Origin: Bdellovibrionota bacterium | GTDB taxonomy: Bacteria > Bdellovibrionota > Bdellovibrionia > Bdellovibrionales > JAEYZS01 | NCBI GenBank assembly: GCA_040386775.1 | Contig: JAZKEU010000012.1 | Span: 186,001 to 250,000 of the forward strand | Direction: 5' to 3' | Length of the DNA: 64,000 nucleotides | In this document: one piece after another, positions 25,889-61,406 of the stretch | How the letters are laid out: the number at the start of each line of letters is the position of its first letter | How positions within the stretch are numbered: position 1 is the first letter of the stretch | The notes under the pieces: generated by a model | Seen by the model: only the letters and a program-made list of their open reading frames with translations | Told to the model about the DNA's origin: nothing | Databases searched by the model: none | Program-made: the position numbers and the translations under genes

Positions 25889-25926
25889 AAAGGTACCCCC
25901 TAGTTTTTCGTACTGTCATCGCGTCA
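25889..25926 (+). repeat. 38-bp stop-abutting repeat, copy A
   Basis: Begins AAAGGTACCCCCTAGTTTTT, contains CGTACTGTC and ends GCGTCA. Starts one base after the stop TGA of the CopG-like gene, in the same orientation. Matches copies B and C at all but a few positions. Nothing else was recognised between 25927 and the HNH gene. Confidence 0.9.
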
Positions 25927-26159
25927 ATTAAAAAATATTTTTACAAATTTATTGACGAGTTTTTTGGTTAATTAGAAGAGCTAGATTGAATTTATTTTTT
26001 CTTTCCTCTGGTTCTTATATTTTTATTCAATCGTTACAATCTAAGGCTGATGAGAAAGCGTAAATCCATTTTATCAATTACACTTTCAAGTTTCAAAATC
26101 GTTAAAAATTGAATTCTAGAAACATATGCTATGTTCTTCTTCATTCAGAGGAGAAACAC

Positions 26160-27191
26160 ATGACCTATAAACACTTATCAGATATCGATCTAGAAATATC
26201 ACTTAAACAATCTGTAGCCGATGAAACTCATCATAAAATTATTGTTCTTCATAAATTAGCAGAACTAGAAAGAAGAAGACTTTATTCTAAGAACTATCCT
26301 TCACTCTTTGAGTATTGCGTGAAAGTGTTAAAATATTCTAGTGCTTCCGCTCAAAGAAGGATTGATTCCATGAGAGCCATGAAGTTGATTCCGGAATTAG
26401 AAGAAAAGATCATTTCAGGGGATTTGAATTTATCTTCTATATCTCAAGCGCAAAGCTTTTTTAGACAAGAGGCTAAAGTAGGCAAAAGCTATTCGGTAAT
26501 AGAAAAGAAAGAAATCTTAGAAAAATTAGAAAACAAGTCTTCTCGAGAATGCATCCAAGAATTGATAACGATTTCCCCGCAAAGCGTTCCTCAAGAGAAA
26601 AGAAGAGAACTAACCGTTAATAAGACTGAGCTTAAGGTGGTTTTAAATAAAGATCTCATCTCAAAGTTAGATAAGATCAAAGCTCTTATGTCCCATAAAA
26701 ACCCAAGTATGACAGATCAAGAGCTAATCGAAGCAATGGCAGAGATTGTAATACAAAAGATAGATCCAATTGAAAAAGCTAACAGAGCAAAGATTAGAAA
26801 ACAGAAAAATAACACGCCTCAGCTTCCGATAGAGGAAGTAAAAAAACAACAGAGTAAAAATATTCTTGAGACCAAGCCCTCAGGGTCGAGACTGGATGCC
26901 TCGAGTCTCAAGAATCGACAATCACGGACGAGCGTCAGTCATACTAGATACATCCCATCCACGATAAAGCACGCAGTCTACAAGAGAGACAAAGGCCAGT
27001 GCACACACAAGAGTTGCAACTCAAACAAGTTCCTCGAATACGACCACATCACACCAATCGCAATGGGCGGTAAAACCACCATCCAAAATCTAAGATTATT
27101 GTGCAGAACCCACAACCAAAGAGCAGCCATCGAAAAGTTTGGATTCCAAAAGATGCAACCATACCTTAACTTTAAAATACAAAATCTATAG
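26160..27191 (+). CDS. HNH endonuclease-domain protein
   Basis: 343 residues from ATG 26160, chosen for AGAGGAG 6-7 bases upstream. The N-terminal ~200 residues are helical, with a DUF222-like layout (IVLHKLAELERRRLY, YSSASAQRRIDSMRAMK, SGDLNLSSISQAQSFFR). A basic linker follows (about 205-275), then an HNH domain with CTHKSCNSNKFLEYDHITPIA and NLRLLCRTHNQ, giving two Cys plus the DH and H residues of a beta-beta-alpha-metal nuclease. Similar HNH proteins are numerous in Bdellovibrio genomes; target unknown. Codon use changes near 26880: the HNH end is C-richer than the N-terminal part. Confidence 0.85.
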   Translation: MTYKHLSDIDLEISLKQSVADETHHKIIVLHKLAELERRRLYSKNYPSLFEYCVKVLKYSSASAQRRIDSMRAMKLIPELEEKIISGDLNLSSISQAQSFFRQEAKVGKSYSVIEKKEILEKLENKSSRECIQELITISPQSVPQEKRRELTVNKTELKVVLNKDLISKLDKIKALMSHKNPSMTDQELIEAMAEIVIQKIDPIEKANRAKIRKQKNNTPQLPIEEVKKQQSKNILETKPSGSRLDASSLKNRQSRTSVSHTRYIPSTIKHAVYKRDKGQCTHKSCNSNKFLEYDHITPIAMGGKTTIQNLRLLCRTHNQRAAIEKFGFQKMQPYLNFKIQNL

Positions 27192-45614: not shown

Positions 45615-46595
45615 ATGAAACCCGACATACAGGAATTACATCGAGTATTGGACATTGAGGCGCAAAGCATTTTGGATCTCAAAAATCAAGTGACGGAAGA
45701 ATTTCCGAAGGCACTTGATATTTTATTAAAGTGCGAAGGAAAAGTTTTTCTAACTGGCATTGGTAAATCCGGTCTGATTGGAAGAAAAATTGCAAGTACG
45801 TTGGCATCCACCGGAACTCCTGCGATATTTATTCATGCAGCAGAAAGCTCTCATGGCGATCTTGGGATGATTTCTAGCAAGGACGTTGTAATCGCACTCA
45901 GCAACAGCGGCGAAACTGATGAACTTTCAGATTTGATCAATTACGTTTCTAGAAAAAATATTCCTCTAATTTCTATCACAAAAACAAAAGAATCCACGCT
46001 CGGAAGAGCAAGCCAAGTGGTTTTGAGAGTGACCGTGAAAGAAGAGGCTTGTCCTATGGGACTCGCTCCAACTTCGAGTACAACCGCGGCTCTTGCTCTC
46101 GGAGATGCACTGGCTGTAGCGTTATTGAAGCGTCGTGGATTTAAAGCTGAGAACTTTGCAGAATTCCATCCTGGTGGAAATTTAACTAAGCGCTTAGTAA
46201 CTAAAGTAAAAGACATTATGTATTCCGGAGAAACTCTTCCACTCGTAAGCCCATCCACTTCCATGAAAGAAGTGATTTTCAAAATGACAGCTTCTGAAGT
46301 GAGAGGCGTTGCCGGCGTTGTTGACAAGAGCAAAGAACTTGTTGGCATTATCACAGACGGAGACTTAAGACGTCGCCTAGAGACACCGAAGAACATTCAT
46401 GAGGATTCTGCGGAAGCACTCATGACACTTAATCCAAAAACTATTGACCTTAACGAAATGGCAGAGAAAGCTCTGAGCGTTATGGAAAGACACAAGATTC
46501 AATCCCTCTTTGTAGTGGATGAAGCTTCTAAATATCCCCACAATCCCGTAGGTATAATTCATATTCAGGACATTTTAAAAAATGGAATTAGGTAG
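45615..46595 (+). CDS. kdsD: Arabinose-5-phosphate isomerase
   Basis: Interconverts ribulose-5-P and arabinose-5-P, first KDO step. 326 residues. N-terminal SIS domain (GIGKSGLIGRKIASTLASTG, SNSGETDELSDL) and two C-terminal CBS motifs (from about 205; EVRGVAGVVD and KIQSLFVVDEA). Preceded by pyrG, and its last 14 bases overlap the GNAT gene. Confidence 0.96.
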   Translation: MKPDIQELHRVLDIEAQSILDLKNQVTEEFPKALDILLKCEGKVFLTGIGKSGLIGRKIASTLASTGTPAIFIHAAESSHGDLGMISSKDVVIALSNSGETDELSDLINYVSRKNIPLISITKTKESTLGRASQVVLRVTVKEEACPMGLAPTSSTTAALALGDALAVALLKRRGFKAENFAEFHPGGNLTKRLVTKVKDIMYSGETLPLVSPSTSMKEVIFKMTASEVRGVAGVVDKSKELVGIITDGDLRRRLETPKNIHEDSAEALMTLNPKTIDLNEMAEKALSVMERHKIQSLFVVDEASKYPHNPVGIIHIQDILKNGIR

Positions 46596-47097
46596 AATCG
46601 AAACAGAAAATTTAATTGGAACCAGAGTGCAACAAGACGACCTTGGAGCTCTTTACCGTATGTATACCAATGAAGAAGTGATGTATACTCTTGGTGGTAC
46701 AAAACTCTTCAGAGAAGCCAAAGAGATTCATGCCAACATGATGGAACATTGGGAAAAGTATGATTTTGGTATTTACATTTTAAGAGACAAAGTAACCGGA
46801 GAGTTCGCAGGCCGCGGCGGACTAAAAAAAGTCACAATCGAAAACAAAGAAGAAATCGAAATCCTCTACGCCCTTATGCCTCAATTCTGGGGAAAAGGCC
46901 TAGCTCTAGAGATCGCTAAAAAATCCATAGATATCGCCTTTGAACATCTAGACATTAAAGATTTAATTTGCTTCACCTGGACAGAAAACAAAAAATCTCA
47001 AAAAGTAATGGAAAAAGCAGGATTCAAACACGAAAAAAACTTCACCCACTACAACCTCCCCCACACCCTCTACCGCCTAAAAAAAGGTACCCCCTAG
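46582..47097 (+). CDS. GNAT acetyltransferase (RimJ/RimL type), end encoded by repeat B
   Basis: 171 residues, with the ELGRIETENLIGTRVQQDDL start and GKGLALEIAKKSIDIAF, the acetyl-CoA loop of GNAT proteins. Similar to ribosomal-protein or generic N-acetyltransferases; substrate unknown. It overlaps kdsD by 14 bases, so it is cotranscribed. The last residues (KKGTP) and the TAG stop come from the first bases of repeat copy B, so the native 3' end may have been replaced or trimmed. Confidence 0.88.
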   Translation: MELGRIETENLIGTRVQQDDLGALYRMYTNEEVMYTLGGTKLFREAKEIHANMMEHWEKYDFGIYILRDKVTGEFAGRGGLKKVTIENKEEIEILYALMPQFWGKGLALEIAKKSIDIAFEHLDIKDLICFTWTENKKSQKVMEKAGFKHEKNFTHYNLPHTLYRLKKGTP

Positions 47098-47120
47098 TTT
47101 TCCGTACTGTCAGCGCGTCA
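47083..47120 (+). repeat. 38-bp stop-abutting repeat, copy B
   Basis: Begins AAAGGTACCCCCTAGTTTTC and ends CAGCGCGTCA. The TAG inside it is the GNAT stop codon, and the TCA at 47110-47112 is the complement of the transposase stop. It forms one flank of the transposase, inverted relative to copy C. Confidence 0.92.
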
Positions 47121-47739
47121 AATACTTATTAAGATTTATTTTCTGCCTTGATATTGGATGAATACAGTCTTTGATCTCGGTCTTTTTAAAAATTTTTTGA
47201 AAAATATTTTCTTCGAAATCCTGAGGACAAAAATTTATCCACGATGCGGGGTCTTCTTTGGGCACAAGCTCATCAATCGGATTTTTTGTAAGTTGAATTT
47301 TTTTATTTGAGACGAAACTTGTCCAAGGATAATTCTCCACGCCTTTACAAAGCTTGGCCCTCACAGGATTTCTTAAAATATATTTATACATTAAGGCATA
47401 ACCCTCAGCTGTTGAAGTATGTGTCCAAAAATACTTTCCTCCATATAAATGATTTTTTCTACCTGCTGCCAGATTAATTCCTTTGCTAGTCATTTGCATA
47501 AAATAGTTCATTGCTTTATCTAGATTTTCTTCTGGAGTAGAGCATAATAAATGAAAGTGATTACTCATTAAAGTAAACGCATGAATTTCAATCTTATATT
47601 TTTCTTTAGTTTTATTTAAATAATAAGTAAAAATATTCCAGCAATCACTAAGCGGTATAGGGAACCACTCAGCGTTATTTGTTTTTGCATTAACATGATA
47701 GGCGCCATGGTCATATTTAATTAGCTTTTGTCTTCCCAT
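47110..47739 (-). CDS. REP-associated tyrosine (Y1/HUH) transposase
   Basis: 209 residues, single-stranded DNA transposase of the IS200/RAYT group. HUH motif at 61-63 (MSNHFHLLC) and a Tyr in the conserved block YKYILRNPVRA at 118-128; the C-terminal ~50 residues are basic and may bind the repeat. It starts cleanly at ATG 47739. The TGA stop lies inside repeat B. RAYT proteins move or process REP sequences, and here both flanks carry the repeat. No frameshift is seen, so the gene may be functional. Confidence 0.9.
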   Translation of the reverse strand: MGRQKLIKYDHGAYHVNAKTNNAEWFPIPLSDCWNIFTYYLNKTKEKYKIEIHAFTLMSNHFHLLCSTPEENLDKAMNYFMQMTSKGINLAAGRKNHLYGGKYFWTHTSTAEGYALMYKYILRNPVRAKLCKGVENYPWTSFVSNKKIQLTKNPIDELVPKEDPASWINFCPQDFEENIFQKIFKKTEIKDCIHPISRQKINLNKYLTR

Positions 47740-47833
47740 ATGTTTTAGAAATGCAAACTATGAACATACGTATAAACAAACCTATTGCTTCTTACAAAGC
47801 AACGAATCCGAATAACGTATTCATATCCGAATA

Positions 47834-47871
47834 TGACGCATCGACAGTACGGAAAACTAGGGGGTACCTTT
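47834..47871 (-). repeat. 38-bp stop-abutting repeat, copy C
   Basis: Read on the minus strand it begins AAAGGTACCCCCTAGTTTTC and ends GATGCGTCA. Its first bases overlap the polA TAA stop (47870-47872), and it points the same way as polA. Forms the other flank of the transposase. Confidence 0.92.
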
Positions 47872-50422
47872 AGTGGGCGTCGAACCAGGAGTTGCCGGAG
47901 GAGATGTTTACTTTTAAGGGGACTTTAAGTTTTACTACGTTTTCCATCATGTCTTTTATTTCTTTTTGGTATTTTTCTGATTTTGATTTTTCGACTTCAA
48001 AAACCAATTCGTCATGCACTTGTAGAATCATTTTTGCATCGGACTTGGCAAAAATATCGATCATGGCCTTCTTCACGATATCGCTAGCGGCTCCTTGCAT
48101 GGGAGCATTGATGGCAGCTCTTTCACCAAAGTTTCTCACTTGGGCATTCTTGGATTTTAATTCCGGTAAATATCTTCTTCTGCCCGAAGCCGCCTCGACG
48201 TAACCTTGTTTTTTGGCGATTTCAATAGTTTCTGTCATGTAGTCTTGAACTTTTGAAAATCTTTGGAAGTATCTAGAGATAATATCCGCAGCCTCAGTTC
48301 TTGAGATTCCCAAGTTTTCAGCCAAGCCATGAGCGCCCATACCGTAAGCCAAACCAAAGTTGACTGCTTTTGCAATTCTTCTTAGGTTAGAGTCGACCTT
48401 ATCCAATTTAATATTGAACACTTCTGCCGCCGTCGCCGAGTGAATATCAAGATCATTTTCAAAAGCTTTCACTAATCCAGGGTCACTTGTTACATGCGCT
48501 AAAATTCTCAATTCAATTTGCGAATAATCGGCAGAAATCAACTCGCAACCCTCTGCTGCAATAAAAGCTTTTCGTATAGCATTTCCACGCTCAGTACGAA
48601 TTGGGATATTTTGAAGATTAGGATTGGTACTAGAAAGCCTTCCTGTCGTGGTTACCGTTTGATGAAATACCGTATGCACTCGATGATCTTTAGGATCCAC
48701 CAGCAATGGTAATGTATCCACATAAGTGGATTTCAATTTTGCCAACTCTCTGTACTCAATAATTTTTTCGGCAATGGGATGTTCTTTCTGTAATTTAGAA
48801 AGAACATCTGAGTCTGTTGAAAATCCGGTTTTAGTTTTGCGAATAGGAGTTAATTTGAGCTTTTCAAAAAGCAAATGTGAGAGCTGTTTTGGAGAAGCAA
48901 TATTGAATGTTTCTCCGGCCAACTCATAAATTTTTGTTTCTAACGCTCTGATGTCTTTATGAAGACCTTCACTTTGTTTTTTTAAAATATCTGTATCAAG
49001 AAGAACACCATAAGATTCCATTGAGTAAAGAACTTCAATAAGAGGTAGATCATAGGTCTCATAAACGCTAAGGCCATTTTGTACGATCATCTTTTCGCGA
49101 AGATGCTTTTCCACTTGCTGGTTAGCCAATAAGAGTTCTGTCCCTGATGGAAAATCTGGAAGTTTTAAGTTAAAGCATTTCTCATAAATTTCAGGAAAAA
49201 GACCGATATCACCTGCCGTAACAATGTAAGCTGCAATCTGATGGTCCCAAACAGCGCTTGCGGTTTTTAGTTTTAATGATTTCCAAAAAGCTTTAAGATC
49301 GCAACCTTTCCACTTTACTTCTTTGTCATCAAAAATTTTACTGAATTTATCGAGGTCATCTTGAAGAGTAAAGACCTTATTCTCAGTCGCTACGAATAAA
49401 GCCCGATCATTTGGCAAAATCCAAAGTGTCTCACCCTTTTTAATTTCTTTTTCAAATTCTACCGCATTTACACTTTTTTCTTCGATGCTTGTAGCATTAT
49501 CTGTAGGAGCCGTAATTGGGGTTTCAATTTTTTTCTCAATTTCTGTTGGGATTTCGACAGGAGCTTCTTGCGTCACTCCGAAAATTTTTCTCTCAAAAGA
49601 TTTGAAATCCAATTCATTCAAAAGTTCAACCATCTCGGCTTTGTTCACAGGTTTTAACTTTAGAGATTCAACATCGGCATTCAATTCAATGTCTGTTTTG
49701 ATAGTTACCAATTGCTTTGAAAGGTAAGCGATATCTTTTGAGTTGATGAGCTTCTCACGAAGTTTATCTGGCTTTACAGAATCTATATTCTTATAAATTT
49801 CATCTAGCGATGGATATTGATCAAAAAGCTTCAAGGCAGTCTTTGGGCCCACGCCCGCAACTCCCGGAATGTTATCCGAAGAATCACCAATCATAGAAAG
49901 ATAATCAATCATTTGATCTGGAGTAATTCCCCACTTTTCTTTTACACCATCGACGTCATACACAACGTCTTTCATAGTGTCGTACATTTTGATGGTTGGA
50001 GTAATAAGTTGCGCAAAATCCTTATCACCGCTCACGATGGTCACTTCGATTTGTTTTTTCGCGGCCATCACCGCTAGCGTTCCGATAATGTCATCCGCTT
50101 CAACCCCAGCCTGCTGAAAGCATGGAATGCCAAGGGTCTCGATAATTTTAGTGAAGTAAGGAAGCTGCGGAATCATCTCTTCCGGCATTTCAGATCGATT
50201 GGCTTTGTAGTCTGGAAAAAGCTCTTCGCGAAAACCATCTTCCTTAGAATCAAAGCAATAAGCCATATAGTCAGGCTTCATTTCACGAAGTAATTTAACC
50301 GTCATGGAAAGGTAGCCATACAAAGCATTAGTCGGCATACCTTTAGAGTTTGTGAGCTGTCGAATGGCGTAAAATGCCCTAAAAAACATATTGCTGGCGT
50401 CTACAAGAAAGAGTCTTTTCAT
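47870..50422 (-). CDS. polA: DNA polymerase I
   Basis: 850 residues from ATG 50422 (an in-frame TTG two codons earlier is unlikely; neither has a good Shine-Dalgarno). A 5'-3' exonuclease domain (about 1-285, LFLVDASNMFFRAFYA) is followed by a vestigial 3'-5' domain (about 320-470) without its DxE site, and by the polymerase with motif A SADYSQIELRILAH and motif C QVHDELVFEV. The missing proofreading residues resemble the Bacillus/Thermus state. Its TAA stop overlaps repeat C. Confidence 0.96.
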   Translation of the reverse strand: MKRLFLVDASNMFFRAFYAIRQLTNSKGMPTNALYGYLSMTVKLLREMKPDYMAYCFDSKEDGFREELFPDYKANRSEMPEEMIPQLPYFTKIIETLGIPCFQQAGVEADDIIGTLAVMAAKKQIEVTIVSGDKDFAQLITPTIKMYDTMKDVVYDVDGVKEKWGITPDQMIDYLSMIGDSSDNIPGVAGVGPKTALKLFDQYPSLDEIYKNIDSVKPDKLREKLINSKDIAYLSKQLVTIKTDIELNADVESLKLKPVNKAEMVELLNELDFKSFERKIFGVTQEAPVEIPTEIEKKIETPITAPTDNATSIEEKSVNAVEFEKEIKKGETLWILPNDRALFVATENKVFTLQDDLDKFSKIFDDKEVKWKGCDLKAFWKSLKLKTASAVWDHQIAAYIVTAGDIGLFPEIYEKCFNLKLPDFPSGTELLLANQQVEKHLREKMIVQNGLSVYETYDLPLIEVLYSMESYGVLLDTDILKKQSEGLHKDIRALETKIYELAGETFNIASPKQLSHLLFEKLKLTPIRKTKTGFSTDSDVLSKLQKEHPIAEKIIEYRELAKLKSTYVDTLPLLVDPKDHRVHTVFHQTVTTTGRLSSTNPNLQNIPIRTERGNAIRKAFIAAEGCELISADYSQIELRILAHVTSDPGLVKAFENDLDIHSATAAEVFNIKLDKVDSNLRRIAKAVNFGLAYGMGAHGLAENLGISRTEAADIISRYFQRFSKVQDYMTETIEIAKKQGYVEAASGRRRYLPELKSKNAQVRNFGERAAINAPMQGAASDIVKKAMIDIFAKSDAKMILQVHDELVFEVEKSKSEKYQKEIKDMMENVVKLKVPLKVNISSGNSWFDAH

Positions 50423-50448
50423 GGGCAAAATCTATAAGGGGCAAGCCT

Positions 50449-50934: not shown

Positions 50935-50975
50935 TTATTCCTAAAACACTAGATACGTATGAAGCATGACTTTTG

Positions 50976-51013
50976 TGACGCAGTATAGACGCTGAAAACT
51001 AAGGGGTACCTTT
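50976..51013 (-). repeat. 38-bp stop-abutting repeat, copy D (diverged)
   Basis: Minus-strand reading begins AAAGGTACCCCTTAGTTTTC and ends TACTGCGTCA. The middle (AGCGTCTA) differs from copies A-C, but length and both ends match. Its first bases overlap the ftsB TAA stop at 51012-51014. Confidence 0.82.
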
Positions 51014-51332
51014 ATTCGTCGTTGGAGAAGACGAAGACTATGTCGTCTTTGTTGACTAAATCGAAGCGGTCTCTGGCTTCGCGTTCGATGAATCTTGGAT
51101 CGTGGGCCATGCGAATTTGTTTTTGGAGTTTTTTGATAGAAATTTCTGTTTCAGAAATTTTTTGCTGCATGCTTTTCTTTTCTACACCCAATTCCCACAT
51201 TTGATATAAAGTGCCATCCAGCAAAATGCCCGCAAGCGCGAACACGAGACAAGTGACTAGAACTTTTCTTGGACTCATCAACAGACGACTAATGGTATCA
51301 GCTACAACAGATGCGAAATTTCTCATACACAT
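51012..51332 (-). CDS. ftsB: Cell division protein FtsB/DivIC-like
   Basis: 106 residues: short basic N-terminus, one span (about 24-42, VLVTCLVFALAGILLDGTLY), a coiled coil (about 45-75, EKKSMQQKISETEISIKKLQ) and the ERPRFIEREARDRFDLV-like end with the family's conserved RF-E-ARE layout (HDPRFIEREARDRFDL). FtsB forms the FtsQ-B-L subcomplex at the septum. Two starts are possible (ATG 51332 or 51326). A strong terminator lies upstream, so it has its own promoter region. Confidence 0.85.
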   Translation of the reverse strand: MCMRNFASVVADTISRLLMSPRKVLVTCLVFALAGILLDGTLYQMWELGVEKKSMQQKISETEISIKKLQKQIRMAHDPRFIEREARDRFDLVNKDDIVFVFSNDE

Positions 51333-61328: not shown

Positions 61329-61406
61329 GAAAAGGTGAGCCGCACCTTTTCCAAATGTTTGCGTCAATTGACGCTGATCTGTGGAAAAGGTGCGGCTCAC
61401 CTTTTC
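61329..61406. repeat. 25-bp perfect inverted repeat with nested palindromes
   Basis: Arm 1 (61329-61353) and arm 2 (61382-61406) are exact reverse complements, separated by 28 bases. Each arm is itself a hairpin: GAAAAGGTG, 5-base loop, CACCTTTTC. The spacer contains the perfect 14-bp palindrome GCGTCAATTGACGC (61361-61374). Arm 2 starts inside the stop codon of the histidine kinase and arm 1 ends just before the eno ribosome binding site, so the element fills the whole gap. It could be a cruciform, a terminator or a REP-like insertion. Confidence 0.92.

Follow-up and report, generated by a model that had tools for sequence, protein, structure and literature searches.

The window, our name for the whole 64,000-nucleotide stretch analyzed, belongs to a draft genome of 2.86 Mb from a predatory-type bacterium with its relatives among the Bdellovibrionota. 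Between two convergent genes, a GNAT gene and polA, it carries a 789-bp element (47083 to 47871) whose limits are exactly those given in the original prediction, which had been made from the sequence alone. The two arms of the element (47083 to 47123 and 47831 to 47871) are 41 nt each, 90% complementary, and 707 nt apart, and a 29-nt core, AAAGGTACCCCCTAGTTTTCCGTACTGTC, is identical in both, with zero matches expected in shuffled sequences. The arm pairing and the open reading frame at 47110 to 47739 on the reverse strand bore out the predicted layout, a Y1/HUH transposase gene between inverted copies B and C of a repeat (here R1). Three genes use repeat bases to stop at this element: the GNAT frame ends with a TAG inside copy B (AAA GGT ACC CCC TAG), the TAA of polA consists of a T plus two As from copy C, and the transposase TGA, the complement of 47110 to 47112, lies within copy B, as had also been predicted. 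Elsewhere in the window, the divergent R1 unit has an altered inner part (TACTGCGTCA) and lies at the end of a 106-aa gene (51012 to 51332) that we take, from its appearance, to be FtsB/DivIC-like.

Features of the window, with positions counted from its first nucleotide.
Feature	Position	Strand	Description
R1 copy A	25889..25917	+	1 mismatch in 29; upstream of HNH-nuclease-like gene
GNAT acetyltransferase gene	46582..47097	+	flanks element; stop codon within copy B
R1 copy B, terminal inverted repeat	47083..47123	+	outer end AAAGGTACC, inner tag GCGTCA; holds GNAT TAG and transposase TGA
RAYT-type Y1/HUH transposase	47110..47739	-	209 aa; HUH motif N60-H61-F-H63; candidate catalytic Y120 (Y-x3-N-P)
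R1 copy C, terminal inverted repeat	47831..47871	-	inverted relative to copy B; gives AA of polA TAA
polA (DNA polymerase I)	47870..50428	-	flanks element; conserved C-terminus ...WFDAH, then TAA overlapping copy C
Divergent R1 unit (fourth copy in window)	50960..51013	-	at TAA stop of 106-aa gene
R3 REPIN	61331..61404		74-bp head-to-head pair AAAGGTGAGCCGCACCTTTTCC...GCGTCA/TGACGC...; R3 belongs to another RAYT of the genome (contig C16)

The transposase frame matched the Pfam family Transposase IS200-like (PF01797) above the cut-off (E value, 5e-9). Its best NCBIfam family was REP_Tyr_transpos (E value, 2e-16), with a score of 60 bits that lies below the curated cut-off of 80, and there was also a weak match to NF033573; all 42 of the aligned members matched the REP-associated tyrosine transposase family. 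The residues N60, H61, and H63 and the motif Y120-x3-N124-P125 were invariant across these 42 members. An AlphaFold model (pLDDT, 91.8) had as its best PDB match 4ER8, a REP-bound RAYT (E value, 6e-9), followed by the transposases of IS608 and ISDra2. The C-terminal extension of approximately 65 residues gave no helix-turn-helix match. Because of the family matches, the invariant HUH and tyrosine residues, and the structural match to 4ER8, we take the 209-aa enzyme to be an intact Y1 protein of the RAYT type that is extended at its C terminus. The locus has the HUH motif, a candidate catalytic tyrosine, and an IS200-like fold nearest to TnpAREP, and its gene, which is single-copy in the genome, lies between two inverted copies of a genome-dispersed repeat, while the NCBIfam curated cut-off is not reached.

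R1 (AAAGGTACCCCCTAGTTTTCCGTACTGTC-N2-3-TGCGTCA) was found in 21 copies in the genome with up to 3 mismatches in 26, and the reversed control pattern was found in none. R1 was absent from all of the 98 related genomes searched, among which two belong to the same family; the observation that would have spoken against the original prediction, a repeat present in genomes lacking any RAYT, therefore did not occur. Two further RAYTs are encoded in the genome (39% and 49% identical to that of the window), each with its own different terminal repeats. R2 (CCAAAAGGCGCTTAGTCGCTTTTGGCGACTA) is present in 8 copies and R3 (AAAGGTGAGCCGCACCTTTTCC-N6-TGCGTCA) in about 54, and R3, like R1, was absent from all 98 relatives. 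The R3 copies are nearly identical, and many or most of them form 74-bp head-to-head pairs joined at GCGTCA/TGACGC, i.e., REPINs. A head-to-head pair of R1 is also present (L013/L021), so that inverted pairs of the unit, a trait of REPINs and MITEs, were observed for both R1 and R3. The inner GCGTCA tag is common to these two repeats; that of R2 is looser, reading GAATCA/GAGTCA at its RAYT and GACGC elsewhere. Around the R3 RAYT (L024, C16:71725-76005), two more R3 units, inverted in the same sense as its own arms, lie approximately 1.7 to 1.8 kb beyond them, resembling a nested larger element.

The association between transposase and repeat extends across the phylum. A set of 134 RAYT loci was collected, nearly all from Bdellovibrionota (a few records are labeled Deltaproteobacteria or Proteobacteria), and 100 of them had flanking inverted repeats that scored above 99% of mis-paired arms, a conservative count since this null includes some near-identical loci. 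The terminal inverted repeats (TIRs) have a common consensus, GGT[A/G]CC...CTTTT...GCGTCA, with variable stretches between the conserved parts. In genomes with several RAYTs, the best partner of a left arm was the right arm of the same locus in 31 of 38 cases (P of about 1e-9 versus one in three). The family-wide correlation between TIR distance and protein distance was weak (Mantel r, 0.12; largest value in 999 permutations, 0.18), because TIRs and proteins are similar in parallel only among close relatives, and TIR similarity is lost below about 50% protein identity. The RAYTs of this genome fall into at least two clades, as judged from a quick tree. All three have an identical inter-arm distance of 707 nt, which we take to be chance since element lengths vary from about 670 to 890 nt across the family. 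Two more RAYT-like genes of this genome (on C19 and, with one internal stop, on C17) had no detectable TIR, and neither did a tandem pair of RAYT-like frames, one with an internal stop, in another genus of the same family (L139; G001:C51:4198-5275). The lineage-wide RAYT family is real and, in the literature searched, undescribed, and it is of an already known kind.

The absence of a clear REP hairpin, noted in the original prediction, holds for R1 and does not hold for the other repeats. R1 folded no better than its shuffles, and for a possible GGTAC/GTACT stem the changes seen among copies break the stem, with no compensation; on these grounds a conserved R1 hairpin was rejected. R2, R3, and the neighboring repeat R5 (AAAAGGTGCCCTGCACCTTTATGTGTCGCAATTGCGTTATT) do fold when compared with shuffles. 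The weak hairpin thus characterizes R1 and is not a general feature of the repeats in this genome. A search of Rfam gave no match.

Sister strains had been proposed as the place to look for mobility, and the comparison gave present and absent states for related Bdellovibrio elements and no empty site for the window element. An entire RAYT element of one Bdellovibrio species (L147 in G028) is missing at the corresponding locus of G031 and G015 (about 90% identical) and of G055. Compared with the empty site, the occupied one is about 40 nt short, among them the final codons of the gene upstream, whose reading frame now stops at the TAG of the repeat, and the junction is not clean. In addition, a single unit in G028, located between a stop-codon context, TAAAA, and the native terminator, is absent from G031, and both genomes keep the terminator (L271/L272). 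One whole RAYT element and one single unit were thus gained or lost between sister species, with the direction suggested by outgroups. The other comparisons between G028 and G031 showed shared, decayed, or complex sites, none of which was a clean insertion. At one of them (L277/L278), G031 has a full unit pair between convergent genes, and in G028 all that spans the two stop codons is a 17-nt core (AAGTTCCTGGTTCTTTT), either a deletion remnant or a preinsertion site.

No empty GNAT-polA site was found in the relatives, where GNAT has no clear ortholog (only matches of about 30%) and polA keeps its native protein end (...WFDAH/WDEAH) with R1 absent. In the genus G001, of the same family, the place that R1 occupies in this genome, directly at the polA TAA, is taken by another repeat family (GGTACCAGGTTGCTTTTCCGAATTATAGGGG...; L299), which would reflect either a shared hotspot or an old unit that was overwritten. 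The transposase gene occurs once in this genome, and no sister species with an unoccupied GNAT-polA junction turned up, so mobility is supported for the related elements and is presumed for the window element itself.

Repeat ends lay at stop codons much more often than expected by chance, most clearly for R3. Among R3 ends, 19 of 32 lay at the stop codon of a convergent frame (-3 to +20 nt), compared with 3% of random intergenic positions, and 14 were in the exact T|AA or TA|A register, compared with 8% of intergenic TAAA sites; the random positions behind these nulls were drawn from this window alone, and ends that belong to the same pair are not independent of each other. Six of the 21 R1 copies were at stop codons, as were 67 of 179 TIR sides in the family, with a sharp peak at +1 to +4. 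The original prediction had taken stop-codon anchoring as a possible mark of a distinct REP class. That part of it fails, because such contact has already been reported for REPs: their termini often supply a TAG stop, and REPs between convergent genes are mostly within 20 bp of both ORF ends (Di Nocera et al., PMC3733652), while REPs within 15 nt of stop codons are discussed as translational regulators by the authors of RepRanger (PMC12306157). We consider it doubtful that insertion in this RAYT family is targeted to stop codons, i.e., that the transposase prefers a TA(A) context at gene ends, with the unit joining as T|AA(A)GG or T|AGG and the native protein end left intact, rather than the pattern arising from selection alone.

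We hold it to be very probable that the locus is a RAYT/TIRYT element, in which a Y1/HUH transposase has its own cognate repeat and nonautonomous copies throughout the genome. The anatomy of the element, the match between each transposase and its own repeat, the existence of private repeat populations, the presence or absence of two units between sister species, and the stop-codon register are the observations behind this reading. Most likely, the transposase would recognize its own cognate unit (outer end AAAGGTACC..., inner tag GCGTCA) in single-stranded form, with binding, cleavage, and strand polarity inferred from the transposase family. The cognate unit bounds the transposase locus as an inverted pair and elsewhere makes up what would be the nonautonomous copies (singles and head-to-head REPINs), and several such transposase-repeat pairs, each with its own repeat sequence, coexist in the genome. 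Copies would persist mainly at gene 3' ends because the outer end of the unit (T|AA or T|AG) provides a stop codon or keeps one intact, a position that may reflect target choice or selection.

The strong position at stop codons could also mean that the repeats are host elements, acting as bidirectional terminators or 3'-end stabilizers beside a domesticated transposase, with copy numbers set by selection at gene ends and not by mobilization. R3 and several family units do resemble intrinsic terminators (AAAGGTG-CACCTTTT), and roles for REPs at gene ends have been published (PMC12306157). However, three RAYTs go with three different repeats, R1 and R3 are absent from 98 relatives, R1 is not a terminator hairpin, and a unit is present or absent between sister species next to a retained native terminator, which together leave this explanation improbable.

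The HNH-type genes of this genome suggest a second alternative. At least 9 of the 21 R1 copies lie in a shared block upstream of such genes, which are multicopy, fall into three subfamilies, and are in some cases broken. In the window (25889 to 27191) and at loci L176 to L186, R1 is located about 180 to 320 bp upstream of HNH-nuclease-like genes, and at several HNH loci R5 and a similar leader lie between R1 and the gene, forming an R1-R5-leader block. No matching right end of the R1-HNH block was seen. Since so many copies share this block, some of the R1 copies were spread by a route other than transposition of single units. If R1 were primarily the left boundary of a dispersed cassette of HNH-nuclease genes, and the RAYT locus had picked it up secondarily, the common block and the three HNH subfamilies would be accounted for, but the remaining R1 copies have no HNH gene noted alongside and RAYTs are paired with their own terminal repeats family-wide, so we give this explanation very little weight. 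Least credible is a classical insertion sequence of the IS200/IS605 type, with the usual asymmetric ends, for although the Y1 fold and the weak NF033573 match agree with it, the terminal inverted repeats are symmetric, RAYT is the better match in family and structure, and the repeats are dispersed without the single-copy gene.

The family offers many transposase-repeat pairs within one phylum, several of them per genome. How REP-type repeats insert and choose their sites is still poorly understood. Because the pairs are many, the private repeat populations (such as R3) are very uniform, and sister species differ in single insertions, the rules of recognition between repeat and transposase and the choice of target become testable.

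The REP/RAYT assignment made in the original prediction is supported by the coupling of repeat and transposase in the genome, by the absence of R1 from 98 relatives, and by the related elements present or absent in sister species. Among published systems, the layout fits TIRYTs/TIRtrons best (PMC3733652, PMC6006769). In such elements, as defined by Di Nocera et al. (2013, PMC3733652), a RAYT-like gene is bounded by long TIRs that have no relation to GTAG REPs, and the TIR families are dispersed; they correspond to subclass 2.1 of Quentin et al. 2018 (PMC6006769). The Bdellovibrionota elements share with them a Y1 gene within long non-GTAG TIRs, several genes per genome with different TIRs, and TIRs dispersed singly and as dimers. 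They differ in that their TIRs share one consensus across a phylum and that the GGGGWSAS motif, which is found in many published TIRYT TIRs and is not required of all (PMC3733652), is absent from R1, R2, and R3 by inspection. Of the subclass 2.1 traits, NHFH is present and the C-terminal extension is without a helix-turn-helix match, whereas the tyrosine motif is Y-x-Y-R-N-P instead of YIELNP or Y[IV]HLNP. We found no paper linking RAYTs to Bdellovibrio in the literature searched, which excluded most subscription journals, and the main texts of PMC3733652 and PMC6006769 do not mention the genus. Within that coverage, this is a known kind of element in a bacterial phylum for which no earlier description was found.

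As in RAYT/REP systems (REPtrons) and REPINs (Nunvar 2010, PMC2817692; Bertels & Rainey 2011, PMC3116915), the transposase lies between two inverted repeats, the repeats occur as singlets and inverted pairs, several repeat-transposase pairs coexist per genome, and repeats abut gene 3' ends and can supply a TAG stop. Unlike those systems, R1, R2, and R3 have no GTAG head, the inner tag is GCGTCA (TGACGC), and R1 has no stable hairpin, which places them outside the GTAG REPs. In CGTC-REPs, as in the dRS3 repeats of Neisseria, the stem follows a 5' CGTC. The repeats described here share with CGTC-tagged REPs (PMC3733652) a CGTC at one end and head-to-head dimers, but the repeat core is 5' of the CGTC, and this opposite polarity separates them from that class. 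CGTC-REPs were reported without a dedicated transposase (PMC3733652), whereas the CGTC-tagged repeats of this family, though of opposite polarity, are paired with one.
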